Of a stretch of 64,000 nucleotides of DNA, positions 9,644 to 54,885 are shown piece by piece (within the stretch, counting starts at the first letter, position 1; every line of letters begins with the position of its first letter). The position numbers and the translations under genes are program-made. Below the pieces are notes generated by a model. The model made no database searches. It was given only the letters and a program-made list of their open reading frames with translations, and was not told where the DNA came from. The stretch comes from Lentinula raphanica (taxonomy: Eukaryota; Basidiomycota; Agaricomycetes; Agaricales; Omphalotaceae): positions 372,001 to 436,000 of the forward strand of contig JANVFP010000017.1 in NCBI GenBank assembly GCA_027919835.1, read 5' to 3'.

Positions 9644-12634
9644 GATACTGTAAAGCTTTTGTAAAAAGACCTGATGAGTTGTCCAGGAGCTTTTGAAAAT
9701 AGTTGTGACGACACAGAGGGGGCTCCGGAAATGGCTCCGGGGGGTGGGCATGCCTGTCACCACCTGTCACATCTGACCTATATTTACTGTTTTGGGTAAT
9801 TAATAATTATCCAGATATTAAATAAATGGTACATATGTAAAAAATCCTGATAAACTATAAAAATTCAAAAAAACCCAAAAAAACCTAATTAGGTCAAATC
9901 GGGGTATGTAAACAAAATAGCCTTATATGGTAAAAAATGCTGTAGGATCTATCTAGGTGCTAAAAATAGCCAAAAGAAATCACTAAAAATGCTAAAAATA
10001 TGTAGGAATGGTATATAGCCTATTGCAGATCCAGGCATCCAAAAATTACCAAAAAAGGAAATTTTTGATGATGATGTCATCTTGTAGCAAAAAATCTGAA
10101 AAAATCCTAAAAATAGTCAAAAAATTCAGGGGTGCCTTGTTGGCCCTGAAAATGCAAAATAAAAAAAATACGCGACAAGTGTAAAAATTTTCATCACTCC
10201 AAATCATTCCAAATCCACTATACAGTCAGTATATATGATGTATATGCTATATTTAGCATCCTAGTACCTTTATTGGGCTAAAAATAGAACTTGATCTCAT
10301 CTGATAGCAAAAAATCTGAAAAAATCATAAAAAATACTCAAAAAATTCAGGGGTGCCTTATTGGCCCTGAAAATGCAAAATAAAAAAATTTACACAACAC
10401 AATTGAAAAACAACATCACTCCAAATCATACCAAATCCACTACACAGTCAGTATATATCATGTATATACTATTTATAGCACCCCTAGTACCCTCAATCAC
10501 TTATATCACTCAAGAATCCTACCAAACTGAATGATTTGGGATATTAAATATATTGTACATGATATTTTTAACACACCTAGTACCCTTGATGACTCAGAAC
10601 AATTTATATTACTCAATATGTTCAGTACACTTAACACTCATCAAACCTCACACATGAAAACTCATAACAGTATTTATATGTATTATATTTAACACAGTTG
10701 ACAATGAAAATACTTAAAACAGTGTTGTCAGTCACTATACTTAACACACTTAACAGTCAAAAAGTCGGAACAATGTTACTTTATATACATAACACACTCA
10801 TTGTTATACTATAACACACTTATAACAACGAGTTTTGGGCGCTTATGGGCGCTTATTTGGTGTTTTTGAGTCGAAATTCATTAATAGCACACTCAATAAT
10901 GTTTGTCTGGGCTCTATACTGTGTCAGGATGTTGTCTATATCATATTCTTCTAGATACAATTCAGAGAACTCGAAAATTCAACCTGTTGGGTTAGCTATA
11001 TTGTGATCTTTTGAAATATAACAGTGTTTTATATAAATGTCAATGCATATGTCCATGTAATGCAAGTATACTGATGGTGGTTCATGAGGGAATCACTCCT
11101 ACAGTCTACTAGAAGTGTCTGGACATGGTTCAGATACTCACTATGACTATTGGACTCTGTGATATATATGTACATGTTTCATGTACACTATAGATGTCTA
11201 CACCTACATGTAACAATAGATGTCATATTCAATGACCCCCATTACAGATCTCTTGGCTATATCACATAGAGTTAGCATGGAATAGGTTGTAGGATGACTC
11301 TTTCCATGACCCAGTAGCAGTTTGACTTCATAACATGGGTGTATGCATTGACATTTACATAAAACACTGTTATATCACAAAAGATCACAATATAGCCAGC
11401 CCCACAGGCTGTAATCTTGAGTTCTCCAAATTGTATCAAGTGTAGTATGATATAAACAACATCCTTACACAGTATAAACCCCACACAAAATTATTGAGTG
11501 TGCTATTAAAGAATTTCGACTCAGAAATACCAAATAAGCGCCCATAAAGCGCCCAAAACTCGTTGTTATAAGTGTGTTGTAGTATAACAATGAGTGTGTT
11601 ATGTATATCAAGTAACATTATTCCGACTTTTTGACTGTTAAGTGTGTTAAGTATAGTGACTGATAACACTGTTTTGAGTATTTTCATTGCCAACTGTGTT
11701 AAGTATGATACATATAAGTACTGTTCTGAGTTTTAGTGTGTTAAATGTGATGAGTACTAAGTATACTGAACATATTGAGTGATATAAATTGTTCTGAGTT
11801 TTTCAGTGTACTAGGTGTGCTAAAAATACCATGTACATTACATTTACTCAATGTTGTCAGTTTGGTAGGATTCTTGAGTGATATAAGTGATTGAGGGTAC
11901 TAGGGATGCTATAAATAGTATATACATGATATATACTAACTATATAGTAAATTTGATAAGATTTGGAATGATGTTGTTTTTCAATTGTGTCGTGTAAATT
12001 TTTTTATTTTGCATTTTCAGGGCCAATGAGGGACCCCTGAATTTTTTGAGTATTTTTTATGATTTTTTCAGATTTTTTGCTACCAGATGAGATCAAGTTC
12101 TATTTTTAGCCCAATGAGGGTACTAGAATGCTAAATATAGCATATACATTATATATACTGACTATATAGTGGATTTGGTATGATTTGGAGTGACAAAAAT
12201 TTTTACACTTGTCGCGTGTTTTTTTTTATTTTGCATTTCCAGGGCCAACAAGGCACCCCTGAATTTTTTGACTATTTTTAGGATTTTTTTCAGATTTTTT
12301 GCTACAAGATGACATCATCATCAAAAATTTCCTTTTTTGGTAATTTTTGGATGCCTGGATCTGCAATAGGCTATATACCATTCCTACATATTTTTAGCAT
12401 TTTTAGTGATTTTTTTGGCTATTTTTAGCACCTAGATAGATCCTACAGCATTTTTTACCATATAAGGCTATTTTGTTTACATACCCCGATTTGACCTAAT
12501 TAGGTTTTTTTGGGTTTTTTTGAATTTTTATAGTTTATCAGGATTTTTTTACAAATGTACCGCTTATTTAATATCTGGATAATTATTAATTACCCAAAAC
12601 AGTAAATATAGGTCAGATGTGACAGGTGGTGACA
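9644..12634 (+). mobile_element. FB-2: family-A foldback element, main part
   Basis: A long palindromic element beginning GATACTGTAAAGCTTTTG, inserted in an exon of the XPG-like gene at CAGCT/GTG. Together with its right tip (33634-33744) it measures 3102 bp, exactly the length of FB-3. The right arm is interrupted at 12634 by the KDZ transposon. The mirror-image arms share the CGAGTTTTGGGCGCTTATGG core and TTAACACACTTAACA words. Short ORFs inside occur as mirror copies and are not genes. No transposase, so it is non-autonomous. Confidence 0.85.
12627..12634 (+). repeat. 8-bp target-site duplication of the KDZ transposon (left copy)
   Basis: TGGTGACA here and again at 33626-33633. The uninterrupted sequence in other family-A elements (GGTGGTGACAGGCATG) contains it once, which proves that 12635-33625 is an insertion. 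Confidence 0.8.
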
Positions 12635-12905
12635 CTATAAAAGTATTAGTTCTGAACAAACACCCCAGGTCATAGCCAGGCTGAATTAAACAGCAATAAA
12701 CACAATGTATTAAACAGTGTACTACATAAACATAGTAGAACTGAATCAAACAGCCTATAATAAACACCACAACTACCAGCATTTAAACACCAGTAAGAAT
12801 AAACCACAAGTTAGGTTGAATGAACAGAATAAAACACATGTTATTAAACACCACCGGCCTAGGAAATGAACACTGTAAATGAACAGCTGATTAAACAGCT
12901 CAGAT
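12635..12905. repeat. Left terminal and subterminal repeat zone of the KDZ transposon
   Basis: Non-coding. Contains repeated AAACA words (ATTAAACAG, AATAAACAC, ATCAAACAG, and so on), at least ten in 270 bp. They mirror the TGTTTATT words at the right end. The terminal 70 bp pair imperfectly with the right end. Confidence 0.65.
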
Positions 12906-12925
12906 GACTTACTTCACGTTGACTC

Positions 12926-14987
12926 TCAAGTATTGGAATGCTTGCGCTTGTTCGAAGAGTCTACACCCTCCTCATCAAAAACAGGGACACGAATATCTCC
13001 AAACCCTTGAACATGTGTTGTTGGATCCTTGAATGATGGTCGATTTGCCCAACTAGAATAGAAGAAACATTAATACTCAGCGCATCTATCAAAGCACAAA
13101 GATAATTTACCGGTTAAAGTTGAACAGCTTCTCCTCCTCTTGTCGCCACTTCAACACATTGTCCGCCAAAGTTTTCCCTTTTGAGATGTTGCAAAGACCA
13201 GGTATACCACATTGTCTGTACTTTGCTTGAGCATCGGAACGTAAGGACTCTAGCATATCCGAATGTTCCTTAGCATAGGCAACGTGGCCAGGCGAAGATG
13301 CATATGGGAGTTGAGCAAGCTCCGTCCATGCGTCGCGTGCATATGCAGAAGCATTGATGAGTCTCATGAAATCCCCATGCTTCTTCTCAACTTCTTCTTG
13401 CCAACGCTCAAAGTCAGCCTCTGCTCGAGCCCATTGTATTCTATTATCTATAGAATACCGTTAGTCGCTAATACAAAAGGAAAATGATGTGCGTACTTAT
13501 CTGCTCCCATTGCTCAATCTCCTGCATTGACATGTTTTTCATTCGTCCTGCAGACCAGATCCACCCATCTGCGTCAACCCCCGGATTGTCAGTGTGTTCC
13601 GAGATTTCATGAGGTGGCTCAAACACTGATTTGACGTTAACTTCAGATTGCTGTAAAGATCTTGCTGAAGAGATATCAGTCAGCCTCACGGACATTGACC
13701 AGCAAAGTTTGATATGACTAACCTTGACGGAGAGACATCTGCGTGCCTAAGATACTGTTAGCCCGAAGTCTTCAAACATAATCAAAGGCCTACCTGAATA
13801 GTTCAAAACATTCTCATTGAATATAGATTCTTCACCCGCTCCTCCACACAATCCCTCGCCTATGTCGTGGCCAGATATCGCCCTTGATGCAGTTCTCGAG
13901 ACCGAGCTACTGTGTCCAGCGCTTGTCATACCCCATAGATTCCCTTCAAGCACTCGTGAGTCCCCAGGTGTACGACGTTGTTCCGTAGATTTGCGAAAGG
14001 TATCCTTCAGTTCCAATGGCGGCCACTTTATTTCATCGAGGTTGTCTAAGGCTTTGAGCGCCCCCCGAAAAAGGGTATAGTCGTCCATGAGATCATTGCG
14101 CTTCGACTCAATCTTCCGTATGCCCGTGATTGACTTCGTGTTTGCATCTTGCCCGCGCGCATCTTTAATCTTCCGTTCAAAAGCAGAGGAGAGGTTCTTG
14201 ACTGTAGTTTGCAAATTACTGATTGTCTCCCCCAGCGCAGCTTCAAGCATCTGAACCTGCTTCGTTGCGAGAGGAAGGAGACGTAGAGTTTGACGTTCTA
14301 TGGCGGTGAAATCGGAAGGGAGAAGAAGGCACTGCTCTTCGGGATGCTGCTTGTCGGGCTCCTGAGATAGGCGAGAACTGATACAGCTCATATAGCGTTT
14401 TTGCAGTTTACGCCATGCATCTAGATCAGCAGCTAACTTGCTTCATTGCGTGGAGAGTGATTTCGGTGGTGGGCTTGCACATGTTCTTGCTATTTTCAAG
14501 ATATGATTCCTACAACAGGTCAGAAGAGTTTTGGGCGAAATGAATCTTCACTTACTGAAGCTGAAAGAGTCGGAGCCCTTCCACTAACCAGGCAACAACG
14601 GCACTGAGTTTGGCATCTCCCGATGAGACAGAAATGGTGTCGCTAGAGGACATTTCCTTGTCAACAATGGCCTTGAGAGTAGGTGCTATGAAAGCAATCA
14701 GGCACTATCTGTCAGCGAGAAGTGGATCGCAAACCTTTCTGGTTGTTATGTGAGTAGATACTCACGACTGACCGCTTGCTATTTGGATCTACACGCAGCG
14801 AACGGTCCATCGAGTTCCATTCCAACACGCGCGACTCGAACAGCAGGCAGAGACCAGCAAAGAAATCACGCTTCTCAACGTACTTCACCTTAGCTTCATT
14901 GAGATCTTTGAGCAGTTGTTGAGCTGTCAATCATTAGCAACTTGTATTTGCGAAGAAATGATAAACTTATACCTAAACCTACCAGCT
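12926..14987 (-). CDS. KDZ transposase, C-terminal part
   Basis: Minus-strand exons following the FB-3 insertion. The frame picks up at the end of the conserved DWNWRK block (VAQQLLKDLNEAKVKY), continues with the helical EWNSMDRSLRVDPNS segment typical of the region after the KDZ catalytic core, and then long coiled or helical stretches (RLLPLATKQVQMLEAALGE, RIEVW-type helices around 14350-13750). The last exons include WRQEEEKLFNFN (13107-13367) and a C-terminus ending KRKHSNT with the stop at 12926. There are at least seven short introns (for example donors at 14574 and 14755). The C-terminal helices probably mediate multimerisation; this is inference. I saw no in-frame stop in the exons I checked, but the exon joins are only partly resolved. 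Confidence 0.7.
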
Positions 14988-17900
14988 GATACTGTAAAAC
15001 TTTTGTAAAAAGTACCGATAAGTTATCGGGTACCTATTGCAAATAGTTGTGATAACCCGGAGGGGGTCCCGGAAATGGCCCCGGGGGGTGGTCATGCCTG
15101 TCACCACCTGTCACATATGGCTTATATTTACTGTTTTGGGTAATTAATAATCATCCAGATATTAAATAAGCAGTACATTTTCAAAAAAACCCGAAAATTC
15201 ATAAAAATTCATAAAAAACCTAAAATGGCCTGATTAGGTCAGATCAGGATATGTAAGCAAATGACCTCATAGGATAAAAAATGATGTAGGGTCAATCTAG
15301 GTACTAAAAATAGCCTGAAAAATCACTAAAAATGCGAAAAATATTTAGGGATGGTATAGAGCCTATTGCAGGTCCAGGCACATCAAAATTACCAAAAAAG
15401 GAAAAATTTGATCATGATCTCATCTTGTAGCAAAAAATCTGAAAAAAATCCTAAAAATAGTCAAAAAATTCAGGGGTGCCTTGTTGGCCCTGAAAACGCA
15501 AAATAAAAAAAAATACGCAACAAGTGTAAAAATTTTTATCACTCCAAATCATTCCAAATCCACTATACAGTCAGTATATATGATGTATATGCTATATTTA
15601 GCATCCTAGTACCTTTATTGGGCTAAAAATAGAACTTGATCTCATCTGATAGCAAAAAATCTGAAAAAATCATAAAAAATGCTCAAAAAATTCAGGGGTG
15701 CCTCAGTAGCTCTGAAAATGCAAGATAAAAAAATTTACACAACACAATTGAAAAACAAAATCACTCCAAATCATACCAAATGCACTATACAGTCAGTATA
15801 TATCATGTATATGCCATTTATAGCACCCCTAGTACCCTCAATCACTTATATCACTCAAGAATCATACCAAACTGAATAATTTGGGGAGTAAATATATTGT
15901 ACATGATATTTTTAGCACACCTAGTACTCTTGATAACTCAGAACAATTTATATTACTCAATATGTTCAGTACACTTAGCACTTATCACACCTAACACACT
16001 AAAACTCATAACAGTACTTATATGTATTATACTTAACACAGTTGACAATGAAAATACTCAAAACAGTATTATCAGTCACTATACTTAACACACTTAACAG
16101 TCAAAAAGTGGGAACAATGTTACTTAATATACATAACACACTTATTGTTATACTATAGCACACTTATAACAACGAGTTTTGGGCGCTTATGGGCGCTTAT
16201 TTGGTGTTTTTAAGTCGAAATTCATTAATAGCACACTCAATAATTTTTGTGTGAGCTCTATACTGTGTAAGGATGTTGTCTATATCATATTCCTCTAGAC
16301 ACAATTCAGAGAACTCGAAAATTCAACCTGTGGGGCTGGCTATATTGTGATCTTTTGAAATATAACAGTGTTTTATGTAAATGTCAATGCATATGTCCAT
16401 GTAATGCAAGTATACTGATGGTGGTTCATGAGGGAATCACTCCTACAGTCTACTGGAAGTGTCTGGACATGGTTCAGATACTTACTATGACTATTGGACT
16501 CTGTGATATACATGTACATATTTCATGTACACTATAGATGTCTACACTTACATGTAACAATAGATGTCATATTCAATGACCCCCATTACAGATCTCTTGG
16601 CTGTATCACATAGAGTTAGCATAGAATAGGTTGTAGGATGACTCTTTTCATGACCCAGTAGCAGTTTGACTTCATAACATGGGTGTATGCATGGACATTT
16701 ACATAAAACACTGTTATCTCACAAAAGATCACAATATAGCCAGTCCCACAAGCTGTAATCTTGAGTTCTCCAAATTGTATCAAGTGTAGTATGATATAAA
16801 CAACATCCTTACACAATATAGAGCCCACACAAAAATTATTGAGTGTGCTATTAATGAATTTCGACTTAAAAACACCAAATAAGCGCCCATAAGCGCCCAA
16901 AACTCGTTGTTATAAGTGTGCTATAGTATAACAATAAGTGTGTTATGTATATTAAGTAACATTGTTCCCACTTTTTGACTGTTAAGTGTGTTAAGTATAG
17001 TGACTGATAATACTGTTTTGAGTATTTTCATTGTCAACTGTGTTAAGTATAATACATATAAGTACTGTTATGAGTTTTAGTGTGTTAGGTGTGATAAGTG
17101 CTAAGTGTACTGAACATATTGAGTAATATAAATTGTTCTGAGTTATCAAGAGTACTAGGTGTGCTAAAAATATCATGTACAATATATTTACTCCCCAAAT
17201 TATTCAGTTTGGTATGATTCTTGAGTGATATAAGTGATTGAGGGTACTAGGGGTGCTATAAATGGCATATACATGATATATACTGACTGTATAGTGCATT
17301 TGGTATGATTTGGAGTGATTTTGTTTTTCAATTGTGTTGTGTAAATTTTTTTATCTTGCATTTTCAGAGCTACTGAGGCACCCCTGAATTTTTGAGCATT
17401 TTTATGATTTTTTCAGATTTTTTGCTATCAGATGAGATCAAGTTCTATTTTTAGCCCAATAAAGGTACTAGGATGCTAAAAACAGCATATACATCATATA
17501 TACTGACTGTATAGTGGATTTGGAATGATTTGGAGTGATAAAAATTTTTACACTTGTCGCGTATTTTTTCTTATTTTGCGTTTTCAGGGCCAACAAGGCA
17601 CCCCTGAATTTTTTGACTATTTTTAGGATTTTTTTCAGATTTTTTGCTACAAGATGAGATCATGATCAAATTTTTCCTTTTTTGGTAATTTTGATGTGCC
17701 TGGACCTGCAATAGGCTCTATACCATCCCTAAATATTTTTCGCATTTTTAGTGATTTTTCAGGCTATTTTTAGTACCTAGATTGACCCTACATCATTTTT
17801 TATCATATGAGGTCATTTGCTTACATATCCTGATCTGACCTAATCAGGCCATTTTAGGTTTTTTATGAATTTTTATGAATTTTCGGGTTTTTTTGAAAAT

Positions 17901-18089
17901 GTACTGCTTATTTAATATCTGGATGATTATTAATTACCCAAAACAGTAAATATAAGCCATATGTGACAGGTGGTGACAGGCATGACCACCCCCCGGGGCC
18001 ATTTCCGGGACCCCCTCCGGGTTATCACAACTATTTGCAATAGGTACCCGATAACTTATCAGTGTTTTTTACAAAAGCTTTACTGTATC
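14988..18089 (-). mobile_element. FB-3: family-A foldback element in the KDZ transposase gene
   Basis: 3102 bp, flanked by CT (14986-14987 and 18090-18091; AG on the gene strand) within the target CACAGCTG. Two mirror-image arms of ~1.3 kb meet near 16540. In gene orientation the 5' end reads GATACA/GTAAAG and the 3' end TTTTACAG/TATC, which could act as donor and acceptor. The donor would leave GATACA and the acceptor TATC plus the 2-bp duplication, i.e. 12 nt. No coding capacity. Confidence 0.85.
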
Positions 18090-19119
18090 CTGTGAACCTA
18101 CAACCTTCCTCCAATTCCAATCACCGTAGTGCATGATCAACGTATCGATGCGGTGTCCATTGCTCATTTGCAGAACCGAGGGGCCTATGGCGTTGAAGAT
18201 TGCCCAACCATACTCAGCTGTTTCGCCATGGAAATGTCCCATGCACATCTTGTACATGTAGCAGTAGAGATAGTCGCATCCCTCGTGATGGTTTTTGACG
18301 TGGCAGGCAGGTATGGTCCAGCGAGCCTTCTGAACCACGTCAGCATCGTCCTTATGGTAGAGGAGCCACCGCTTGACTATATGTACAGCTAGACTGCACA
18401 TGTTGTCGTAACTGAACACTCGCGGAGGCTGCTTATCTTTATCGAAACGACACGACTCAACACGAAGCTTCACCCCAAGATCGACGGTAGCGTGACTGAG
18501 AAGGATTTAGAAAATTGATATGATATATAGACAGAAACACCTACTTTTCACCCCCTTTCATATCGACACTGGAACAGACAAATATGTGTGAGCATTGAAC
18601 ATTGACGTTGCCAGTTACGCTCATATTCTTGAATTTGGCACGGTTTGCACTATTCTCAACCTTGAGGTGATTGCAAGTAGCTTTCTGTTGAGTTAACATC
18701 CATGAGTATACGACAGACCGGTCTGACAGGAGGATTACCTCTTTTTGTAACTGAGGAACAGTTTGAAGGTAGCGTTCATGACGCTTTTGTTCTGGCATGT
18801 ACGCTCGTCCAGCGAACAGAGACACATCATTCGGGTCATTGTTCTTCGCGTAGTTCCCGGTTTTGCTGTTGCCGTCGATAGTGTCATAAATCGTATGCAG
18901 ATGCCTTCAGATGCGTTAAATGAGGTGTTAATGAGGTGTAAAAATCCACATACATTAAGTGCTGCGGCGTCTTCTCCCATCCTGGTTCCATGTTGACATC
19001 AGCCTCGGGGCAGGCAGGGCAGTATACCATCAGATTGTTTGTCGGACGTCTGGGATACTTCTCATTCATGCCGTTACCATGGAGTCTTCCGAACCGCTTT
19101 TCTGCTTCAAGAAGCACAG
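18090..19119 (-). CDS. KDZ transposase, catalytic core
   Basis: This is the central RNase H-fold region of the transposase. After the FB-4 insertion the exon continues VLLEAEKRFGRLHG and the zinc-ligand-like YCPACPEADVNM. After an intron (donor 18953) comes the IYDTIDGN block (first catalytic Asp candidate), then GRAYMPEQKRHERY, the CNHLKVENSAN..TGNVNVQC block, and after an intron at ~18541 VFSYDNMCSLAVHIVKRW (second Asp candidate) and GHFHGETAEYGWAIFNAIGP (Glu candidate), ending RRIDTL-like RIDTLIMHYGDWNWRKV. Order and spacing match KDZ transposases well (IDGN, SYD, GE.AE.GW, D..GDWNW). The exon breaks at CACAG, where FB-3 is inserted. No stop codon seen in the joined exons. Confidence 0.85.
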
Positions 19120-21787
19120 GATACTGTGAAGCTTTTGTAAAAAGGTCCAATGAGTTATCGAGGAACGTTTGAAAAAACCTGTGATAACTCGGAGGGGGCT
19201 CCGGAAATGGCTCCGGGGGTGGTCATGCCTGTCACCACCTGTCACATGGGGCCTATATTTACTGTTTTGGGTAATTAATAATTATCCAGATATTAAATAA
19301 GCAGTACATTTTCAAAAAAACCCGAAAATTCATTAAAAATCTAAAAAATCCTAAAAAAGCCAGATTAGGTCAGATCAGGGTATGTAAGCAAATGACCTCA
19401 TATGATCAAAAATGATGTAGGGTCAATATAGGTACTAAAAATAGCCCAAAAAATCACTAAAAATGCAAAAAATATTTAGGGATGGTATAGAGCCTATTGC
19501 AGGTCCAGGCACATCAACATTACCAAAAAAGGAAAAAATTGATCATGAGGTCATCTTGTAGCAAAAAATCTGAAAAAAATCCTAAAAATAGTTAAAAAAT
19601 TCAGGGGTGCCTTGTTGGCCCTGAAAATGCAAAATAAAAAAAAATACGCGACAAGTGTAAAAAATTTTATCACTCCAAATCATACCAAATCCACTATACA
19701 GTCAGAATATATTATGTATATGCTATTTTTAGCACCTCTAGCACCCTCAATCACTCAGAATAGCTTATATTACTTAAAAATTACACCAAACTGACAACAT
19801 TGAGTAAATATGATGTACATGATATTTTTAGCACACCTAGTATCCTTGAACACTCAGAACAATTTTTATTACTCATTATGTTCAGTACACTTGGTACTTA
19901 TCACACCTAACATACTAAAACTTAGACCAGTAGTGATATGTATTATGTCTAACACAGTTGACAATAAATACTCAAAATAGTGTTATCAGTCACTATACTT
20001 AACACACTTAACAGTCAAAAAGTCGGAACAATATTACTTGATATACATAACACACTCATTGATATACTATAACACACTTATAACAACGAGTTTTGGGCGC
20101 TTATGGGCGCTTATTTGGTGTTTTTGAGTCGAAATTCATTAATAGCACACTCAATAATTTTTGTGTGGGCTCTATATTGTGTCAGGATGTTGTCTATATC
20201 ATATTCCTCTAGATATAATCCGGAGAACTCGAAAATACAACCTGTGGGGCTAGCTATGCTATGATTTTTTTGTGATATAACACTGTTTTATATAAATGAC
20301 AGTGCATACACCCATGTTATGAAGTCAAACTGCTGCTGGGTCATGAAAAGAGTCATCCTATAACCTATTCTATGCTAACTCTATGTGATACAGCCAAGAG
20401 ATCTGTAATGGGGGTCATTGAATATGACATCTATTGTTACATGTAAGTGTAGACATCTATGGTGTACATGAAACATGTACATGTGTATCACAGTGTCCAA
20501 CCTTTATGATAGCTATCTGAATCATGTACAGACACTGCCAGTAGACTGTAGGAGTGCTTTTCTCATGCACTAGCATCCGTATACTTGCACTACATGGACA
20601 TATGCATTGGCATTTACATAAAACACTATTATATCACACAAGATCACAGTATAGCTAGCCACACAGGTTGTATTTTCGAGTTCTCCGGATTATATCTAGA
20701 GGAATATGATATAGACAACATCCTGACACAATATAGAGCCCACACAAAAATTATTGAGTGTGCTATTAATGAATTTCGACTCAAAAACACCAAATAAGCG
20801 CCCATAAGCGCCCAAAACTCGTTGTTATAAGTGTGTTATAGTATATCAATGAGTGTGTTATGTATATCAAGTAATATTGTTCCGACTTTTTGACTGTTAA
20901 GTGTGTTAAGTATAGTGACTGATAACACTATTTTGAGTATTTATTGTCAACTGTGTTAGACATAATACATATCACTACTGGTCTAAGTTTTAGTATGTTA
21001 GGTGTGATAAGTACCAAGTGTACTGAACATAATGAGTAATAAAAATTGTTCTGAGTGTTCAAGGATACTAGGTGTGCTAAAAATATCATGTACATCATAT
21101 TTACTCAATGTTGTCAGTTTGGTGTAATTTTTAAGTAATATAAGCTATTCTGAGTGATTGAGGGTGCTAGAGGTGCTAAAATAGCATATACATAATATAT
21201 TCTGACTGTATAGTGGATTTGGTATGATTTGGAGTGATAAAATTTTTTACACTTGTCGCGTATTTTTTTTTATTTTGCATTTTCAGGGCCAACAAGGCAC
21301 CCCTGAATTTTTTAACTATTTTTAGGATTTTTTTCAGATTTTTTGCTACAAGATGACCTCATGATCAATTTTTTCCTTTTTTGGTAATGTTGATGGGCCT
21401 GGACCTGCAATAGGCTCTATACCATCCCTAAATATTTTTGCATTTTTAGTGATTTTTTGGGCTATTTTTAGTACCTATATTGACCCTACATCATTTTTGA
21501 TCATATGAGGTCATTTGCTTACATACCCTGATCTGACCTAATCTGGCTTTTTTAGGATTTTTTAGATTTTTAATGAATTTTCGGGTTTTTTTGAAAATGT
21601 ACTGCTTATTTAATATCTGGATAATTATTAATTACCCAAAACAGTAAATATAGGCCCCATGTGACAGGTGGTGACAGGCATGACCACCCCCCGGAGCCAT
21701 TTCCGGAGCCCCCTCCGAGTTATCACAGGTTTTTTCAAACGTTCCTCGATAACTCATCGGACCTTTTTACAAAAGCTTCACAGTATC
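19120..21787 (-). mobile_element. FB-4: family-A foldback element in the KDZ transposase gene
   Basis: 2668 bp, flanked by AG at 19118-19119 and 21788-21789 within CACAGCTG. Its arms mirror each other around ~20450. Nearly identical in sequence and length to FB-6 (2670 bp), so it is a recent insertion. In gene orientation the 5' end is GATACT/GTGAAG and the 3' end CTTCACAG/TATC. Contains no transposase. Confidence 0.88.
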
Positions 21788-22812
21788 AGCTGCAAGAAGG
21801 GGCCAGATGCGTGAGACGAACTGGAATTGCTTGTAGACGTCCTAGCGTTATGACTCATAAGACCAGAGAATACTGCATAGCACATGGGAGCTTACCGGAA
21901 CATTGCCAGTGAACACATTGTCAGTTTGACGACGCAGCGCGCGTATATAGTCATAGGCGGTGATTTTTGACTGAAGTGTCATAAGTTGCCAGTGTCGAAG
22001 GGTTCCAAATGTGAAGGCCGTCTGCGGTTCTGCCACAGTCGCAGGGAAAAGGTCCGCATCCATAAGTTGTCGCCACTTGTTGGAGTCACTGCAGGCACAG
22101 AATGCGACTTTTGTAGCATGTACACCAGTTTTGTTATCCACAAGTGTCATGTGCAGAGGTTTGGAGGCTCGAGGACACACATCGCCATCGTGTCCGAGTG
22201 GAATTCCGTAAGAGTCAGAACCAAGTAGTGTTGATATGTCGTGGCGCTGAAAGTACCCCCGTTCATCATTCCAAACGTGGGCCCAGTGAAGTGGCTGGTG
22301 TTTGTGAGCCCGAACCCAACAGGAGCGACAAAGAGGAGCAAATTGTGTGCATTCGAGGCATCGAACCTCACGAGAGGCTTCATTACAGCAGCAACGCATC
22401 CCTATACGTGGATCCGCCTCTTTCCGCATGATCAGCTGGGCGGCAGGCTCGAACAGGTCAGCGTATTCTTCGAGAAGTTTAGCACGCTGGTGAACATCAA
22501 TGAGTTAGAGCCAAATGAAAACTGCGGCGACAATCATACCTGAGTGCGAGTTTCTTCAGAAAAATCAACGTCGTTGTCTTCGATTAACAGATCGCTGGAT
22601 GTAATATCTGGGAGAGCTGGAACCATTGGTGGCAGCGCATGGGAGCCAGTGGGCATCGACGGAGAGGTTCTAGGGAGAGTTTGAGCTCAAATTGTTTTCC
22701 GTCCGTTATCAATAACTGTGAAGGTCTTCTTCGGAACATTCAGGTTGGAGAATTGCGAAGTGTTTCGTTCAAGCTCGTTCTTCGTGATTTTGCGCCGCTT
22801 CGCTGAAGACAT
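21788..22812 (-). CDS. KDZ transposase, N-terminal part with CxC2-like cysteine cluster
   Basis: Start at 22812 (MSSAKRRKITKNEL, basic, a plausible nuclear signal). Exons 22812-22540, 22486-21896 and 21841-21788 join in frame. Exon 2 carries the cysteine/histidine cluster associated with KDZ transposases: MRCCCNEASREVRCLEC, APLCRSCWVRAHKHQPLHW, then FQRHDISTLLGSDSYGIPLGH and the CPR..KPLHMTLVDNKTGVH block. It probably binds DNA. An in-frame TGA at 22687-22689 follows codon 41 and the frame stays open after it, so the copy is either mutated or uses the later ATG (MPTGSHALPP). The last exon breaks at CAGCTG, where FB-4 is inserted. Confidence 0.8.
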
Positions 22813-27378: not shown

Positions 27379-29928
27379 TCAAAAACGACGAGGGATAGTT
27401 GGAGCGCGCTTGAAGTAGTCAGAGAAAACACAAATGTAATGATAGGCTACATGATACTCCGCATTATCAATCTCGTGAACGCTAGGTTCGCAACTAGGCC
27501 TGAGAGGCTCAACAACACGTTCAAGCTTCGAAGATACCCCATAACCAAAACCCCAGCCTCGCATGATGCGGTAGAGATTGTACGTGGCTTCTTGGCGGTT
27601 TTCCTTGTTCGGTGACCCGAACCCCATATTTCCCGTAACCAGACCCGGGATGGCAACTATCTTGTCAAAGCGCTGTGAATGACTCGTCACACCCAGCTCA
27701 TCAACAACCTCGCCATCTTCAGGCGGTTCCTCCGTGTTCGATCTTGGGTCAAACAAATATCGATCGGCCGCCAAAAGTTCCGTTTTGAATGAAATTCTGA
27801 TGATTTCATTGAGAATCTCTGTGCAGATAGGATCAGGAATCTTGTCCGGGTACTGCTGGCCTTTCCACTGCGGGATGATGTTCTTGAGGTTTGAAAGATC
27901 AATTTCCTGAACAAGACTTGAAGTTAGCATTGAGGTATGTTGTGAGGAGTCATAGAACCTACCGGGTTGGGTAGTTGTGTTTCCTTCGTCGACGTAAGAC
28001 TCTGCAACATATTGACCAAAGTTTGACGCGTTTTGGCAGCCTGTGTACCCTCCTTTGACCGAAGATACTCCAATCCCAAGATTTTTCGCCAATCTTCATT
28101 CGACATGAACGAAGCGGTCATGCCAAGCTTCTGTAAGCGGTAGAGGAGTAGCTCGCGCAGCTTTAAGTACATGGAAAGGAAACCCTGGCGAGTGCCTTCG
28201 GAGAGATTGGCTAGCATAACAGCATCCGGTAATGGATAACCTCTTGAGACACCTTCTCGCAGGGGTTGCTCATGATTGAAATCTTTCCCGACATTGCTAC
28301 TAGCTCGCGCCCAAGTTGAAATTGCAGGTGGTAGCAGCGATGACTCGATTTGTTCAAATTTATTTCGAGAGGGGGTGGATTGACCTGACTGTGAACGATT
28401 CTTTTTCGGCCGGGAATCTATATCAAACAGGTAAGCAAACTGCATGGAACACTTGAAATGAGAATTCGACGTGCATGGTGTGGATCGGGAATCAGACGTT
28501 GGAATTGACGATGATATCCGCGAAATGGCTGAAGGTCCCGCAGTTGAGGTGAGGGGAGGACTAGTGATGGGAGTGGTCGGAGAAACCAGAGTAGAATTGA
28601 AGATGGAAGGGGGAAATGCTAGTTTGCCGGTATAATCAGCCATTAGCTGATAATGTTCACAAGAGTGAAGACTACCCGAATAAACAACGGGATGGGGAGG
28701 ATTCTCGTCTTCGAAGCTCACAACTTTGGTGATAACATCAAACAACTTGGGGAGTGGTGAATCATCAGAGTGCCAATGGATAACTTTGACATCGGAAGGA
28801 ACTGGAAGTTTCCGACCGTACCAGACAGGAATGCCAGCCTAGAGAATAAAATCATGCTTAGTTGGTTCAGAGTTTGGAATGCATCGAATGAAAGCCTAGC
28901 TTACTCGAAAGCATTGCTCGGCAATGAGCGGTTGGTCAGTGATGGTGCCAATGACTGGCCGGAGTGGGTGCGTTTTCCAGGCCTCTGATTTACCCCACGA
29001 TGGTTCTATAAACAGCATCCAAGTGATGAAGGCATCCATCTGCAGCAAATTGCGCTGACAGATGCACCAAATCATAAGACTCTCTGAGTACGGGGCCGCC
29101 GCAGTAGACAGTTGCGAGAGGAGATAACGGATACGACCCTGATATTCTTTGATTTTGGGATGAGATCGAAGGGAGGATGTTGTAGATGCCACTGAGGAGG
29201 AGGAAGAGGAAGCGAATTTCGCATCATCAATCCTTGTATAGATGGTAACTAAAGCATGCTCCAATGCGTCTAGCTGTATCTTGGGGAAGCGGCCGATAGG
29301 AACAGCAGCCAACTTAAAACCATCGATTGGCTCGAAGTCGACCTCCGAAGGTAGATGCCACAAAATGTTGAGGTAATCATTAAGATCTGGAATACGGATT
29401 AACGCAAGATATGCCCTGGACATGCTGAAGAATTGGGGATTGAAGTCGGGGTCATGTTGACCAAAGTGCAATTGCTTTCGAAGGCGAACGTCCTGGATTC
29501 CCCATACTGGCTCCGGCAAAACATCAGAGTTGGGCGACGTGAGGAAGATGTTGCTTTCTGAGTAGATACATCCAACTCGACCGTTATAAGATTTCATAAT
29601 TGTAGCCTAGGGAGCATGAATGATGATCCTGGTAAAGAGAGGATCTGCTCACCATAGTAGTAGGATTGATATGTATAAACCGCAGACAAGTACACAAACG
29701 ACGCAAAGCCGATTGGTGTGAAAACGAAAAATTCAACACGGAGTCAAATTTTCCTTTGGCAAACGGAATGGATATGGAACTGCAACACAGAGTTACTTGT
29801 TCAAAGACGATCGCCGTCACATAGACAGAAATCGCCTGATTTTTAGGGTAGACGGATGTTCAGAACATGAATACGTTCAAGACGCAAAGGTAGAACTTAG
29901 AAGGAGTTGAAGGAGAACCGTGACGCAT
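27379..29928 (-). CDS. KDZ cargo gene B, hypothetical protein (780 aa)
   Basis: Five exons on the minus strand: 29928-29875, 29835-29653, 29606-28905, 28838-27963 and 27906-27379, joined in frame with consensus introns of 39-66 nt. The predicted protein has 780 residues without a stop. Exon 3 holds the most conserved-looking part (WGIQDVRLRKQLHFGQHDP, FFSMSRAYLALIRIPDLNDY, LNILWHLPSEVDFEPID). Exon 4 contains GIPVWYGRKLPVPS and a serine/threonine-rich linker. Exon 5 includes NIIPQWKGQQYPDKIPDPI and MRGWGFGYGVSSKLE. Similar proteins are, as far as I recall, common uncharacterised families in mushrooms, often next to transposons. No catalytic motif or TET/JBP signature seen. Confidence 0.75.
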
Positions 29929-30775
29929 GATGTTACTGGCGCGTGTGATGACTCACTGGACAACTTCATGTAAGCATCTGATTTACGTTCTGCTACTAGC
30001 CTCCTCGCCGCCCACGACCATGAGCACGATGGCTTTGAGCTGTCTGCTTGATTCTTTGGCAGTTGATGACTCTATGTTGTCGCTGCATTTACTTGCGTAT
30101 GATGTTGACTTTGTGTTAACATCGTCGAAACTGCTTGACTTTGAGTCGGCAGTGCTGAATACTTCCTCGATATCGATGAATCTCTCAATGTTGAACTTGC
30201 AAGGTATGTAACTAGTTGAATGAGGTTATGACTCTGAGACTGATGCTTTCTATATATTTTTATCGCAATATTTGCAGCAGTCGACCTCAAGGCTCGACAT
30301 AAGACACCGAATCCAAGCGGACTTGGAAGGAATGGTCGCGATAGTCAACGCGATAGTCCATTTGGCCAACAATAACGAATCGGTAACCGAAACAACGACT
30401 CCCATCTACTCAAGTCTACTCGCTATCATCTCCGACATATCATCAAGCGGACTTAGAAGGAATGGTCGAGTGTGTGTGGGTAAAGACCACTCGAGCGTTG
30501 GATAGCCAATTTGGCCAACAATAGAATAAACAGAACAGACGAATTGGTAGGTGGCATCTAGATAGACAATGGAAATATGGATTTGACGTATTGTTTATTC
30601 GCAAGGGAACTCCTCTCGTGTCCGCGGTACATTGTTCGACTTGAGGCATATGACGCGTAGTTGAGCGCGTCGAACCACTCAACACACACCATTTCTCCTA
30701 AGGCCACTTCCTATATATCTTGTCTTCGAACACTCACATCCACCTTCTCCCTGATTCTCCTTGATTGAAACCATC
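29929..30775. other. Intergenic region between divergent cargo genes B and C
   Basis: About 850 bp that probably hold two divergent promoters. A unit with AGCGGACTTRGAAGGAATGG and ATTTGGCCAACAATA occurs twice (about 30316-30390 and 30446-30545). A TATATATTTTT lies at about 30251 and CTATATATC at 30711, ~65 bp upstream of the gene C start. No credible ORF. Confidence 0.4.
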
Positions 30776-33219
30776 ATGCTCAACAATACCACTTCGACTA
30801 TCACTCCTCCTCCTCCAGTCCCGCACGCGTCTGCAGCACCCGACTTGGAACCTCCGAAGAAGAAGCGTGGGCCGAAATCACCACTCACCGATGATCAAAT
30901 TGATATCATCCAGACTTATTTTCCAGCGATGGAGAAACTCCTTGTGCAGCATGAGCTTCACGCTGGCAAAGAAGACAAAGTCCCCGATCCGGATGCGGTG
31001 GTTACATGGTTCGACAATACCATTACAAAAATACTCAAGACGAAGGCTTTTGAGACGCTAGATAAAACCAAGAAAACTCCAGCACAGTGGCGCGTAGTAA
31101 GTGTCAATGCCATTACATGTTCCGTTCATCAGTATCAATCATTCTCTCATAGGTCATCTGAGACGTCTTCAAAAACTATCGCAACAACACCTTCATCCCA
31201 AAGAATCAGAAAACCTTTGCGCTGCACTACCTTCAATCCAAGAACAATGAGACTCGCAGTCCCGATGAGTTCATCAAGGCAGCAGATGCCTTAGTCTCGT
31301 TCAAAGTTCCCGCCGCTCCGAAGAAGCTGTTCGAGCGCGAGAACAAGGAAGCCATAATCGCTTTGATGAACAAGAAGATCGCAGATTTGACTGCCAAGAC
31401 ACCTGGAGGCGAATACGCTGAGAACGACGCGACAGAATCTCCCGAAACGCGCGCGGATAACACTCGTAATCCCAATCCCGCAGCACTTTATCAAAATGCG
31501 TTGACGGAACTCTGGGCCAAGGCCGACAAACAGCGTTACATTGACGAGGCATCCTCAGTGGATATCTTCAAGTGAGACTCTCTTTGATTCTACTATGATA
31601 ATCATTTCAACTAATATCTTCTTCGCAGGAATCAAGCTATGTTCCAAGAATCGATGTATAATACCCTCTGCGCTTTGGCGGAAGGTGGGGCGATAGGGCC
31701 AAGTGAGATGCTCCTTTGGGTTGGTTTTTGTGACAAGGACAACGTTGTGCAATGCCAACGGTATGTACTCTTTTGTTATTATAATGCTCAAGGTCTCCTT
31801 ATAGTGATTTCTCAGATTACATGCCCATCATCGCTACGACCCAGACAACACCATCAAACCATTCATTGAGGGCGATGAGGCCACGGAAATAGAGAACACC
31901 TGGGAATCATTCTGTGAACGGACTATTCCTTGTAGGTTTTCCAATTGATGTTCCTTCTTGACCGTCCATGTTGACACTGTCTGGTTTGTCTAAGGTCATC
32001 CAAAGAAATCTCCTTCCAACGGCGCTATTGATGAAGGGGCTAGTACGATCGATGTGCCTCGCACCGCTGCCGGTGTACTAGTCCTTCCCGAAATCGACTT
32101 CGATAATACAACGCGCATCCAGCTGTTAGAAACGTTGATCAACTTTCGCAAAGCGCTATGGTGTAAGTCCTTGACTTTGTGGCTCCGTTGATTATGAACT
32201 CATATGTTTCGACAGATTTCAGCTATCCAGCTGATATCAATATGCCTTCGGTCCCGGTGGCCCATATAGCCGCTCATCCAGAGGATTATCTTGACGTGGA
32301 GCAGTTTCCACAAGCAGTAGAACTTGCCACAGTCGAGAGCCTCGACCTTGTCGCTCTTTTTGAACTTGCCAAGTATCTGGGAAGTGTATCACATACTACA
32401 CATTCAACTCCGATCACTTTTAGACCAAAGGCTGAAATTCAACGAAGGGCTCATGATCGGAGTGTCAAGGAAGAAAGGGAACGGCAGACCGGGGACGAAA
32501 TCGTGTATGTTACCCAGACTGCATCTGGTAATGCTCCCGCCCCTTCCAAGGAGTTACAACCTTCTCCGGCGTCGGCTGCTGAGCAACAGGTTGATTCCTT
32601 GACTTCTGTGGGCCTCCCTTCCAATGATACCATGCCAGTCAAGTCTTCCTCTACCGAATCTCTTGCCACGGCCAACCCTCTTCTTGTTTCTGCGAGCCGT
32701 CATTCCACGCCATTTGAGCCTTTATCCACTGACTCTCTTGCCACGACCAACCCTCTTCTGATTTCTGCAAGCCCTCGTTCTACCTCTGTTGATGCTCCTC
32801 CTATGACTTCTGTCGATGCAGCAGTGCCACCTCCAGTGAACCCTCATTCTCCGTCTGTAGCTGTGGAGACTGCTTGTGCTCCTTCAAGTGAGGCTGAGAC
32901 AAGTGGTCCTCCTCTGACTTCTCTCGACACATCAGGAGCTTCCACTGATACCCCTCCTACTGCGATGTCTGATCATTCCAAAAAACGGAAGCGTCCCAAT
33001 GACTCCGAAAGCCAGGAAAACATCTTACCGGCTCCGAAAACTCGCAGGCGGGCTGGCACCAGTGGAGGAGTGGATCAAGGCACAGGAGCTGGACGGGTAA
33101 CCCGCGCCAGCACAAAACAAGCAGCGGAACCGCGAACACTTCAAGGTGGGCGTCGGGGTAACGTGGCTGGAGGACATGTACCAGGAGATCAAGTAGAGAA
33201 GCGGAAGGGACGCCGTTGA
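30776..33219 (+). CDS. KDZ cargo gene C, basic nuclear-type hypothetical protein
   Basis: Six exons: 30776-31096, 31153-31571, 31629-31760, 31816-31931, 31995-32162 and 32216-33219. They sum to 2160 nt (720 codons) and stay in one frame. The N-terminus has an AT-hook-like KKKRGPKSPLTDDQ; the middle contains MLLWVGFCDKDNVVQCQR and VLPEIDFDNTTRIQLLETL; the C-terminal third is Ser/Thr/Pro-rich and ends in basic clusters (KKRKRPND, KTRRRAG, EKRKGRR) that suggest a nuclear DNA-associated protein. An in-frame TGA at 31159-31161 near the start of exon 2 would stop translation unless splicing differs. Family not named; similar proteins seem common in Agaricomycetes. Convergent with the right KDZ end. 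Confidence 0.7.
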
Positions 33220-33225
33220 TTTGCT

Positions 33226-33625
33226 TTGTTGTTGGCCTGTTTGATGGTGTTCATTGCGTGTTCATTTCAGTATGTTGTTTACTTCTATGTGTATGCTGGT
33301 TATTTCATTGTCCTGTTTATTTCACTATGCTGGTTATTTCACTGTCCTGTTTATTTCACTATGCTGTTTATTTCATTGTCCCGTTTATTTCCGTATGCTG
33401 TTTATTTCACTATGTTGTTTATTGAATGCATGTTGATTATGTTGTTTATTAAATGCACGTTTATGTACATCACAAGGTGTTTATTGATGTGTTTATTGAA
33501 GACTCTAACTCATTTAATGTAAGGGTAGTAGGGGTAATGAAAAAGGTGTTTATTGGGATGTTTATTGAAGTTTATTCAAGTCTGGTCTTGACCTCGGGTG
33601 TTTATTAATAACTGAGCCGGATTCC
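33226..33625. repeat. Right subterminal and terminal repeat zone of the KDZ transposon
   Basis: Contains more than ten TGTTTATT or GGTTATTTCA-like words (for example near 33322, 33349, 33367, 33385, 33403, 33447, 33480, 33547, 33561 and 33598), the inverted match of the AATAAACA words at the left end. Ends at 33625 just before TGGTGACA. ORFs here are translations of the repeat. Confidence 0.65.
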
Positions 33626-33633
33626 TGGTGACA

Positions 33634-33744
33634 GGCATGCCCACCCCCCGGAGCCATTTCCGGAGCCCCCTCTGTGTCGTCACAACTATTTTCAAAAGCT
33701 CCTGGATAACTCATCAGGTCTTTTTACAAAAGCTTCACAGTATC
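33634..33744 (+). mobile_element. FB-2: right tip, separated by the KDZ insertion
   Basis: The last 111 bp of FB-2 (GGCATGCCCACC to CTTCACAGTATC) after the second TGGTGACA. It ends directly at CTGTG of the XPG-like gene. In the XPG direction it contains a YTNAY site (CTCAT), a CTTTTT tract and TTCACAG/TATC, a complete acceptor-like arrangement. Confidence 0.85.
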
Positions 33745-33938
33745 CTGTGTATCAAAACAATTTGCCCGGTCAGAATATTTTTCCTTGCTTGGTGTACTTG
33801 TAACTGAATGCGGAGTATGTTCCAGTCCTCCACGGTGTTCCCACCTCTTCAACTACCCTAGCCTCCAGTTCAAATTCACAGGTATCATTGTCAGACTACA
33901 ATGATATAATTGATATTAGCGACGAAGAGAATTTTTGA
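33745..33938 (+). CDS. XPG/Rad2-type nuclease, 3' part
   Basis: When the frame from 9643 is continued here across one target-site copy, codons run VYQNNLP, then a probable intron (GTCAGA to TTCCAG, about 33780-33834), then VLHGVPTSSTTLASSS and a C-terminus NDIIDISDEENF with stop at 33936-33938. Such an acidic Asp/Ser C-terminus is common in this family. The split gene shows the FB-2 and KDZ insertions occurred in a once intact host gene. Confidence 0.7.
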
Positions 33939-38620: not shown

Positions 38621-39383
38621 TCTTTCCGGCCCACAAGATCGCGCGTGCGCGAAACCCTACATCAAAATATTGACCAGTCGAACGGTGAATGAAACAGGAT
38701 ATCAATGCATGTGCAGGTTCGTGGCATGCTTTCCCAGGGCTATAGCGTTCCTGTATCTCAGCGATTATAGCTTCAATGTCATTGTCAAGTTTGGCCTGTG
38801 AGATACACAGTTACACGTTGTATATTCAAATGGATGTGTTACATACCTTCTTTGCCATTGGTCCTTCATTGTTATGAAGCATAACATGTACTTCTAAGCC
38901 CCCACAAATTTCTCAAATATTTCCAGCATATCCCCTGATTTTTCCTGATTTTCTTACTATTTTTCCATATTTTTCCATCATTTATTTGGGCTTAAACAAC
39001 CTCTGCAGTCCTTTTCTATCGATGACCGAGCTTACGCCGAGGTGGCGCTTATTCGGCGTCTCGGCATCCAAACGTAGAAGCGCGGTCTTTTCCTTCTCCC
39101 ACGCTCATCCTCTCTCCTCGCTCCCATCTACCCTCTTCATCCTCGACCTCCCAATGCGATGGAACCAACGGATCAACACCAAGGACACCAGGACAGGCTA
39201 AAGGGATAGTGAGGACGACGAGGAACGACCATAGAGGGCTGGAGACCGCGAGGACACGGTCTGCCAGCCAGTCTCTTAATCATCACGACAGGTCCATCGT
39301 CGACTCGCGTCGATGTGTACTGACCTCCCCATGCGCTCCCGGATCTTGACAACCCCAACCAACCTCGGCCCCGCTCTTCAGCT
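38621..39383. other. Region without a supported gene
   Basis: A few short ORFs on both strands, none with conserved motifs or clear introns. Some may be exon pieces of the gene to the left. FB-6 is inserted at its right edge (CAGCT). Confidence 0.3.
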
Positions 39384-42053
39384 GATACTGTGAAGCTTTT
39401 GTAAAAAGGTCCGATGAGTTATCGAGGAACGTTTGAAAAAACCTGTGATAACTCGGAGGGGGCTCCGGAAATGGCTCCGGGGGGTGGTCATGCCTGTCAC
39501 CACCTGTCACATGGGGCCTATATTTACTGTTTTGGGTAATTAATAATTATCCAGATATTAAATAAGCAGTACATTTTCAAAAAAACCCGAAAATTCATTA
39601 AAAATCTAAAAAATCCTAAAAAAGCCAGATTAGGTCAGATCAGGGTATGTAAGCAAATGACCTCATATGATCAAAAATGATGTAGGGTCAATATAGGTAC
39701 TAAAAATAGCCCAAAAAATCACTAAAAATGCAAAAAATATTTAGGGATGGTATAGAGCCTATTGCAGGTCCAGGCCCATCAACATTACCAAAAAAGGAAA
39801 AAATTGATCATGAGGTCATCTTGTAGCAAAAAATCTGAAAAAAATCCTAAAAATAGTTAAAAAATTCAGGGGTGCCTTGTTGGCCCTGAAAATGCAAAAT
39901 AAAAAAAAATACGCGACAAGTGTAAAAAATTTTATCACTCCAAATCATACCAAATCCACTATACAGTCAGAATATATTATGTATATGCTATTTTTAGCAC
40001 CTCTAGCACCCTCAATCACTCAGAATAGCTTATATTACTTAAAATTACACCAAACTGACAACATTGAGTAAATATGATGTACATGATATTTTTAGCACAC
40101 CTAGTATCCTTGAACACTCAGAACAATTTTTACTACTCAATATGTTCAGTACACTTGGTACTTATCACACCTAACATACTAAAACTTAGACCAGTAGTGA
40201 TATGTATTATGTCTAACACAGTTGACAATAAATACTCAAAATAGTGTTATCAGTCACTATACTTAACACACTTAACAGTCAAAAAGTCGGAACAATATTA
40301 CTTGATATACATAACACACTCATTGATATACTATAACACACTTATAACAACGAGTTTTGGGCGCTTATGGGCGCTTATTTGGTGTTTTTGAGTCGAAATT
40401 CATTAATAGCACACTCAATAATTTTTGTGTGGGCTCTATATTGTGTCAGGATGTTGTCTATATCATATTCCTCTAGATATAATCCGGAGAACTCGAAAAT
40501 ACAACCTGTGTGGCTAGCTATACTGTGATCTTGTGTGATATAATAGTGTTTTATGTAAATGCCAATGCATATGTCCATGTAGTGCAAGTATACGGATGCT
40601 AGTGCATGAGAAAAGCACTCCTACAGTCTACTGGCAGTGTCTGTACATGATTCAGATAGCTATCATAAAGGTTGGACACTGTGATACACATGTACATGTT
40701 TCATGTACACCATAGATGTCTACACTTACATGTAACAATAGATGTCATATTCAATGACCCCCATTACAGATCTCTTGGCTGTATCACATAGAGTTAGCAT
40801 AGAATAGGTTATAGGATGACTCTTTTCATGACCCAGCAGCAGTTTGACTTCATAACATGGGTGTATGCACTGTCATTTATATAAAACAGTGTTATATCAC
40901 AAAAAAATCATAGCATAGCTAGCCCCACAGGTTGTATTTTCGAGTTCTCCGGATTATATCTAGAGGAATATGATATAGACAACATCCTGACACAATATAG
41001 AGCCCACACAAAAATTATTGAGTGTGCTATTAATGAATTTCGACTCAAAAACACCAAATAAGCGCCCATAAGCGCCCAAAACTCGTTGTTATAAGTGTGT
41101 TATAGTATATCAATGAGTGTGTTATGTATATCAAGTAATATTGTTCCGACTTTTTGACTGTTAAGTGTGTTAAGTATAGTGACTGATAACACTATTTTGA
41201 GTATTTATTGTCAACTGTGTTAGACATAATACATATCACTACTGGTCTAAGTTTTAGTATGTTAGGTGTGATAAGTACCAAGTGTACTGAACATAATGAG
41301 TAATAAAAATTGTTCTGAGTGTTCAAGGATACTAGGTGTGCTAAAAATATCATGTACATCATATTTACTCAATGTTGTCAGTTTGGTGTAATTTTTAAGT
41401 AATATAAGCTATTCTGAGTGATTGAGGGTGCTAGAGGTGCTAAAAATAGCATATACATAATATATTCTGACTGTATAGTGGATTTGGTATGATTTGGAGT
41501 GATAAAATTTTTTACACTTGTCGCGTATTTTTTTTTATTTTGCATTTTCAGGGCCAACAAGGCACCCCTGAATTTTTTAACTATTTTTAGGATTTTTTTC
41601 AGATTTTTTGCTACAAGATGACCTCATGATCAATTTTTTCCTTTTTTGGTAATGTTGATGGGCCTGGACCTGCAATAGGCTCTATACCATCCCTAAATAT
41701 TTTTTGCATTTTTAGTGATTTTTTGGGCTATTTTTAGTACCTATATTGACCCTACATCATTTTTGATCATATGAGGTCATTTGCTTACATACCCTGATCT
41801 GACCTAATCTGGCTTTTTTAGGATTTTTTAGATTTTTAATGAATTTTCGGGTTTTTTTGAAAATGTACTGCTTATTTAATATCTGGATAATTATTAATTA
41901 CCCAAAACAGTAAATATAGGCCCCATGTGACAGGTGGTGACAGGCATGACCACCCCCCGGAGCCATTTCCGGAGCCCCCTCCGAGTTATCACAGGTTTTT
42001 TCAAACGTTCCTCGATAACTCATCGGACCTTTTTACAAAAGCTTCACAGTATC
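39384..42053 (+). mobile_element. FB-6: family-A foldback element
   Basis: 2670 bp, flanked by CT (39382-39383, 42054-42055) in the target CACAGCTG (reverse orientation). Arms mirror around ~40720. Nearly identical to FB-4 apart from a few substitutions and single-base indels (for example GGCCCATC at 39773 versus GGCACATC at 19508). No coding capacity. The interrupted sequence around it is not recognised. Confidence 0.88.
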
Positions 42054-54877: not shown

Positions 54878-54885
54878 GCGGTGGC

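Follow-up and report, generated by a model that had tools for sequence, protein, structure and literature searches.

Foldback transposons of Lentinula raphanica belong to a clan with proposed introner-like ends, plausibly spliced in short relatives and probably ineffective in the foldbacks

Lentinula raphanica is a wild relative of shiitake. A 64,000-nucleotide stretch of its genome (contig JANVFP010000017.1, here called the window; C17:372001-436000 in the searched genome of 49 Mb and 75 contigs) carries palindromic foldback transposons, termed family A, which belong to a wider clan of elements with related ends. The reading favoured here, with confidence at about the midpoint, is that the clan has introner-like ends, which are plausible splice sites in its short relatives but probably do not work in the foldbacks. 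The transposase that would move clan elements is, on this reading, of KDZ type and perhaps Kyakuja-like. The first 11 nucleotides (nt) of an element would be followed by a GT donor; at the opposite end, read on the complement, an AG acceptor would lie 9 nt from the terminus, and in many cases a second one 3 nt from it. With a 7-bp target site duplication (TSD), splicing would leave 27 or 21 nt and keep the reading frame. Short members (585-608 bp) would be removed as introns, and the long foldbacks would remain mostly unspliced, simply interrupting genes. This reading starts from observed ends, TSDs, end polarity, empty sites, copy numbers and splice-site scores, and from one annotated splice.

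Repeats with GT...AG-like termini had been described in this stretch by an earlier note made from the letters alone. The repeats and these termini are real, but the anatomy had been misread, because GATAC, where the palindrome begins, was taken as the element end. The true ends lie 5 nt further out: CAGCT/GATAC at the A-end and CACAG/GATAC at the B-end (a slash marks the start of the palindrome or, below, a splice boundary). All complete copies read carry these five extra nt, CAGCT (A) or CACAG (B), outside the palindrome; in FB-6 the palindrome occupies nt 6-2675 of 2680 at 94.7%, and only the 5-nt caps lie outside it. The motif GATACWGTRAAG has 13 window matches at up to one mismatch, a few of which are not element ends (shuffles: mean 1.18, 0/100 reaching 13), and 373 exact genome matches versus 18 for a reversed-pattern control. 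Counted as exact matches to 14-mers only, there are about 250 ends of each type in the genome.

Perfect 7-bp TSDs flank 4/4 complete unsplit window copies, and 7-bp TSDs were also found in 3/3 copies in KDZ genes outside the window and in 2/2 long A-B pairs (C7:973913-984453, 10.5 kb; C2:1823215-1836720, 13.5 kb). Among 20 further loci fetched by their A-end, 13 combine a B-end with a perfect TSD, one matches at 6/7 bp, and for six none was found. No TSD was present in the eight A-A and B-B pairs checked (0/8), which suggests that the two ends are not interchangeable and that transposition needs one of each kind. Two of these like-ended pairs (C16:249208-252312, C11:10116-13233) have flanks that are reverse complements of each other, and appear to be inverted duplications around the palindrome, whether real or an assembly artefact. 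Foldback lengths range from 2630 to 3119 bp, except in L013 (5672 bp), which holds an insert: a foldback plus about 3.2 kb of other sequence, in which the longest stop-free stretch is 175 amino acids (aa). Family A thus has the long inverted arms and TSDs of foldback elements. Its members are non-autonomous DNA transposons, palindromic over nearly their whole length yet polar, since their two ends are not equivalent; they have a 7-bp TSD, and several lie inside other transposons. The clan elements of the window and the genes or transposons around them are as follows.

1203..2488, plus strand: FB-1, truncated, B-end only; right limit approximate
3776..6381, no strand: second foldback family, clan termini CAGCTG-N3-CT/GTAAGA at both ends
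8204..9638, plus strand: XPG/PIN-like gene stretch 5' of FB-2, approximate
9639..12634, plus strand: FB-2, left piece, A-end at 9639, TSD TATCAAA at 9632-9638; inside the XPG-like gene
12635..33625, minus strand: KDZ transposon in FB-2, 20,991 bp including three nested foldbacks; Pfam CxC2 and KDZ
14983..18094, plus strand: FB-3, 3112 bp, A-end left, B-end (A variant) right, TSD AACCTAC; in a KDZ exon
19115..21792, minus strand: FB-4, 2678 bp, B-end left, A-end right, both T variants, TSD CAAGAAG; in a KDZ exon
23601..26719, minus strand: FB-5, 3119 bp, TSD GATAAGG; not within an established exon
33626..33749, plus strand: FB-2, right piece, B-end, TSD TATCAAA at 33750-33756
39379..42058, plus strand: FB-6, 2680 bp, TSD CGCTCTT

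The KDZ transposon has its own 8-bp TSD, TGGTGACA, at 12627-12634 and 33626-33633. FB-2, previously taken for an insert of about 3 kb, therefore spans 9639-33749 (24 kb), split by the 20,991-bp transposon. Its proposed location in an XPG-like gene is borne out by PF00867 in the paralogue P0001, a protein that provides the empty site and ends SYAMKNSYQNNLPG. The location of FB-3 and FB-4 in a KDZ gene likewise holds, with Pfam CxC2 and KDZ matched in the gene segments and empty sites in the paralogues L030, L031, L032 and L033. Homology to L030 places a native donor 3 nt downstream of FB-3; the L030 protein P0007 reads KVVGLAQQ across a 49-nt intron at this site. Splicing of FB-3 would therefore need a 19-nt micro-exon. 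FB-5 is, as had been noted, a counter-example: its 3' end on the KDZ strand reads ACTG instead of ACAG and offers no acceptor, and the flanking open reading frame (ORF) has no Pfam match. For the foldback at 3776..6381, a TSD of 6-10 bp was looked for and none was found.

The same layout recurs beyond family A. Clan ends share CAGCTG-N3-CT/GTRA, and such termini outside family A occur at window positions 3776 and 6381 and in L009, L010, L014, L032 and L038. The scan for them covered 360 kb of sequence with patterns that required GT or TGT at the donor place; matches to CAGCTGCCAGTGTC (L031, L032, L033) and CATTGGACTCTGTAATA (L085, window 60507) and the match at L014:2506 were set aside as non-ends. 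A TSD-guided scan, allowing up to 2 mismatches per 14-nt end, returned 19 complete elements, of which 17 belong to family A and the other two are short. The two short elements and a third short copy are listed here (L032 is C27:118674-122099; L038 is C19:211827-215240).

L032:566-1173, no strand: short element, 608 bp, TSD TGATGTA; in a KDZ exon, open scar
L038:117-701, no strand: short element, 585 bp, perfect 7-bp TSD ATTACAG; in a KDZ exon
L010:1863-2470, no strand: third short copy, TSD absent

Their A-end reads CAGCTGAGGCT/GTAAGA (GTAACT in L038) and their B-end CACCTGTAGCT/GTAGGT. Further family-A ends were seen in two KDZ genes, a little downstream of the KDZ domain (L032:2194 and L051:2077); the L032 gene thus carries a foldback end as well as its short element.

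One candidate for splicing is annotated as an intron. It lies in L038, a KDZ gene for which the paralogues L039 and L040, without the 585-bp element, provide empty sites. Identity to L038 over the long flank is 99.8% and 98.5%, respectively, and 100% over the first 117 nt. A public protein, P0016 (C8R42DRAFT_547207), fits L038 exactly given a 571-nt intron, GCT/GTAACT...CTACAG/GTG, which uses the element's own GT and AG (donor side GCT/GTAACTTC). It yields ITAAEAVITAHHY where the empty site gives ITAHHY, or, in wider context, SKITAAEAVITAHHY versus an expected SKITAHHY. The scar comprises 11+3+7 = 21 nt, seven residues in frame. Splicing in L038 and L032 would join GCT to GTG or to CTACAGGTG. 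The case was met while native introns were being compiled, not by a targeted search.

Splice-site quality was judged against those native introns. Annotated KDZ proteins from the L. raphanica strain and other strains, fitted exactly to genomic loci, gave 49 introns. After removal of duplicates and of introns above 70 nt (251, 269, 339 and 571 nt), the splice-site matrix was built from 39 distinct introns of up to 70 nt, which, being drawn from related genes, cannot count as independent. These short introns measure 46-62 nt, 35/39 have G at position +5, and their leave-one-out median scores are 8.1 (donor) and 4.6 (acceptor). Against these medians, donor scores range from 3.2 to 7.6 and acceptor scores from 3.9 to 6.7 in the scored clan ends outside family A; the two TSD-bearing short elements have donors of 5.4-7.6 and acceptors, 9 and 3 nt from the end, of 3.9-6.7, and the L009 donor is weak (3.2). 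Acceptors at either distance keep the frame in either orientation. Most clan ends outside family A thus score near native splice sites, and splice sites within the element, as in introners, are present by sequence and score in most clan ends. A lone end at L028:2615 on the minus strand, CACCTGTGGCA/GTGAGT, has a strong donor score of 8.5; no partner end was found for it.

A competing account, to which we give somewhat less than even weight, is that these are ordinary foldback transposons, that GT and AG belong to a transposase-binding end sequence with no role in splicing, and that the P0016 intron is an artefact of gene prediction. The near-native scores just described speak against it, as does the placement of both TSD-bearing short copies in exons with open scars, one of them spliced in the annotation. 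Random 50-mers from the window, treated as palindromic ends, cut both ways: just 0.2% match family A for the donor and the acceptor together, but about 12% have an equally weak donor with an ordinary acceptor, and 5% do so with the frame kept, so the coincidence of GT and AG alone is not strong (in this test the FB-6 end itself falls below the donor threshold of 1.2, probably through rounding).

The splice sites of family A itself favour this competing account. Its donors (GTRAAR) lack the +5 G and fall at the 8-15th percentile of the 39 native donors, and 10-25% of all GT sites in the window score equally well. Acceptors ending ACAG score above all 39 native acceptors on the same matrix, but the A variant of the B-end has no acceptor. 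Exact A-ends in the genome comprise 32 TGTG, 225 TGTA and 1 AGTR; exact B-ends comprise 105 TGTR and 141 AGTR. T therefore stands at the acceptor-determining base in 257/258 A-ends versus only 105/246 B-ends, and the claim of an acceptor in every copy fails, since 141/246 B-ends read ACTG. Where the inner context AGCTTTTG was required, no A-end with a non-G first donor base was found in the genome. The 3'-side CTCAT or CTTAT match and a T tract are present at the five element 3' sides read (18089, 21787, 26714, 33744, 42053), as had been claimed, although at 18089 the tract is GTTTTTT and not CTTTTT.

Conservation of the ends gives the splice letters no special standing. Across 17 TSD-anchored copies the GT is invariant, as are nearly all of the first 29 nt; the variable columns are 14 and 17 at the A-end and 11 and 14 at the B-end, so that at the B-end one of the only two variable columns is the base that decides the acceptor. 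The GT is thus no more fixed than its neighbours, and the survey that had been suggested as a check proves unsupportive; the whole fixed block is what an ordinary foldback would have. The invariance of the A-end GT is partly built in, as copies were anchored on CAGCTGATAC and 13/17 come from loci fetched by CAGCTGATACTGTG. Two end searches gave 360 and 358 matches at up to three mismatches, A- and B-ends mixed; sorted by mismatch, the 100 matches listed from each were exact. Because nearly the whole 29 nt is fixed and the A-ends were in part selected for GT, the conservation test cannot single out splice letters.

The foldbacks would also leave a different residue from the one first proposed. 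The 12 nt of the earlier note become 11+9+7 = 27 nt (nine codons), because the ends lie 5 nt further out and the TSD is 7 bp; the frame is nevertheless kept, and the stop-free residual string ADTYPV is confirmed. Nine exonic clan insertions were examined (seven family A, two short), and eight scars are open; the one with a stop is in L016 (gag-like), leaving 6/7 family-A scars open, a weak count, as chance alone would leave most phases open. Searched in both orientations, the joined scar of family A has 0 matches in the whole genome at 0-1 mismatch, despite copies in genes of long terminal repeat (LTR) retrotransposons (L019 pol, Pfam RVT_1; L016 and L024, gag-like by eye), which again fits ordinary foldbacks. 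At 2 mismatches it has 12 genome places versus 5 for the reversed pattern. The scar is also absent from the 165 proteins examined, a weak test since few of them come from foldback loci. QLRC/QLKC matches in 11 of these proteins were set aside as native: 10 share the context QLRCPRL, and P0037 lacks the remaining scar.

In three KDZ-domain genes examined elsewhere in the genome, a foldback separates one half of the gene from the other. Two of the foldbacks, at C3:338273-341377 (TSD ATTTCTT) and C7:828881-832039 (TSD ATTAGTT), lie seemingly inside short native KDZ introns. The third, at C1:623787-626897, is in a KDZ exon of a copy that also has an in-frame stop; no protein from this locus with a family-A scar was among the matches listed (120 of 987). 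Seemingly intronic positions in 2/3 copies are a further point for ordinary foldbacks.

For the 2.7-3.1 kb foldbacks, then, the evidence leans against splicing, because of weak donors, the many B-ends without acceptor, length (about 50 times that of short native introns), buried sites and the absence of a genomic scar at 0-1 mismatch. The burial is predicted by ViennaRNA: when the end regions are folded for FB-3, FB-4 and FB-6, the donor pairs with the acceptor at a paired probability of about 1 for nearly all bases, the acceptor A of FB-3 being an unpaired mismatch in the folded arm. Such a duplex would hide both sites from the spliceosome. The idea that clan termini can act as splice sites draws support from the short relatives, which have the same layout and one annotated intron, whereas the foldbacks would probably make poor introns.

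Several observations weigh against splicing even in the short members. The P0016 intron is an annotation, not a transcript, and may come from a gene model, built ab initio or from homology, that passes over the insertion. Further long introns (251, 269 and 339 nt) follow from these proteins too, and the models may be unreliable where introns are long, as the ordinary-foldback account expects. L038 with P0016 is a single case; no other of the 165 proteins has a clear scar. The clan patterns demanded GT or TGT, the TSD-guided scan tolerated no more than 2 mismatches per 14 nt, and conservation of GT across families is therefore partly built in. The proposed transposase also faces difficulties. 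Kyakuja elements, of the KDZ group, are described as having a 7-bp TSD and 5'-CA..TG-3' termini and as lacking terminal inverted repeats (TIRs) (PMC12730594). Family A shares the TSD length and the termini, but is palindromic; and Kyakuja has its own transposase, whereas no coding copy was found among the family-A copies examined. No listed KDZ match lies inside the two long A-B pairs (compared by eye), and in 1.2 kb sampled from one of them no stretch of 70 aa is free of stops. Foldback-like repeat fills the middle of the 10.5-kb pair (C7). Since Kyakuja is described as lacking TIRs and no autonomous partner was found, family A is not filed as Kyakuja. KDZ genes are nevertheless abundant in the genome (158 Pfam matches, exons counted apart). 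The rust-fungus hAT7 transposons also have a 7-bp TSD (PMC12730594).

A stronger version of the favoured reading, which we advance only tentatively and regard as doubtful, holds that this mushroom-forming basidiomycete has an introner system in the clan, whose ends would be kept because splicing at them is frame-neutral whichever way the element lies (11 + 9 or 3 + 7 nt); the short elements would then be real introns, and the foldbacks overgrown members that are still slightly spliced. Efficient splicing of foldbacks whose 1.3-kb arms pair to join donor and acceptor, as first proposed, is improbable: the ACAG acceptors, the frame arithmetic and the open scars (mostly expected by chance) accord with it, but the sites pair with each other when folded, native introns are far shorter, FB-2 is 24 kb, FB-3 would require its micro-exon and the L016 scar has a stop.

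For the introner-like ends favoured here, the closest precedent seen is an introner family of Aureococcus, described as carrying both splice sites and adding 12 bp, or four codons (Gozashti et al. 2022, PMC9860276). Both are TSD-bearing elements with both splice sites that add, or would add, whole codons to the mRNA; the L. raphanica clan differs in its 7-bp TSD and in the 21 or 27 nt added. The host here is a basidiomycete, and among fungi the text of that study names pezizomycotina and ascomycetes. Introner families there have median lengths of 30-654 nt, a range into which the short members fit and which the foldbacks, mostly 2.6-3.1 kb, exceed (PMC9860276). An intron is annotated in one clan case (L038/P0016), and the L032 copy likewise lies in an exon; family A has weak donors and shows loss of B-end acceptors. 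Introner-like elements of Dothideomycetes are also repeated introns invading fungal genes, although 'inverted repeat' and 'transposon' each occur 0 times in the main text describing them (PMC4457414). The internally symmetrical stwintrons of Hypoxylaceae are likewise symmetrical spliceosomal introns in a fungus, but are nested introns (PMC8469720).

The origin of new spliceosomal introns is a long-standing question. If the short members are spliced, they would form a DNA-transposon introner family in Basidiomycota that keeps the frame in either orientation, and sister families with good to poor splice ends would offer a natural series for the gain or loss of splicing competence. A literature search, which lacked most subscription papers, found no paper on introners in Agaricomycetes or on transposable elements of Lentinula raphanica.

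Two further features were seen towards the right of the window. At 47846-58704, long minus-strand ORFs resemble, by eye, a Ty3/gypsy-type retrotransposon (gag and pol pieces). A third foldback family, at 58701-62310, has symmetrical CACTTCAGG ends without the splice-like ends of the clan and, if its ends are symmetrical, an 8-bp TSD, TTTTCCTC.

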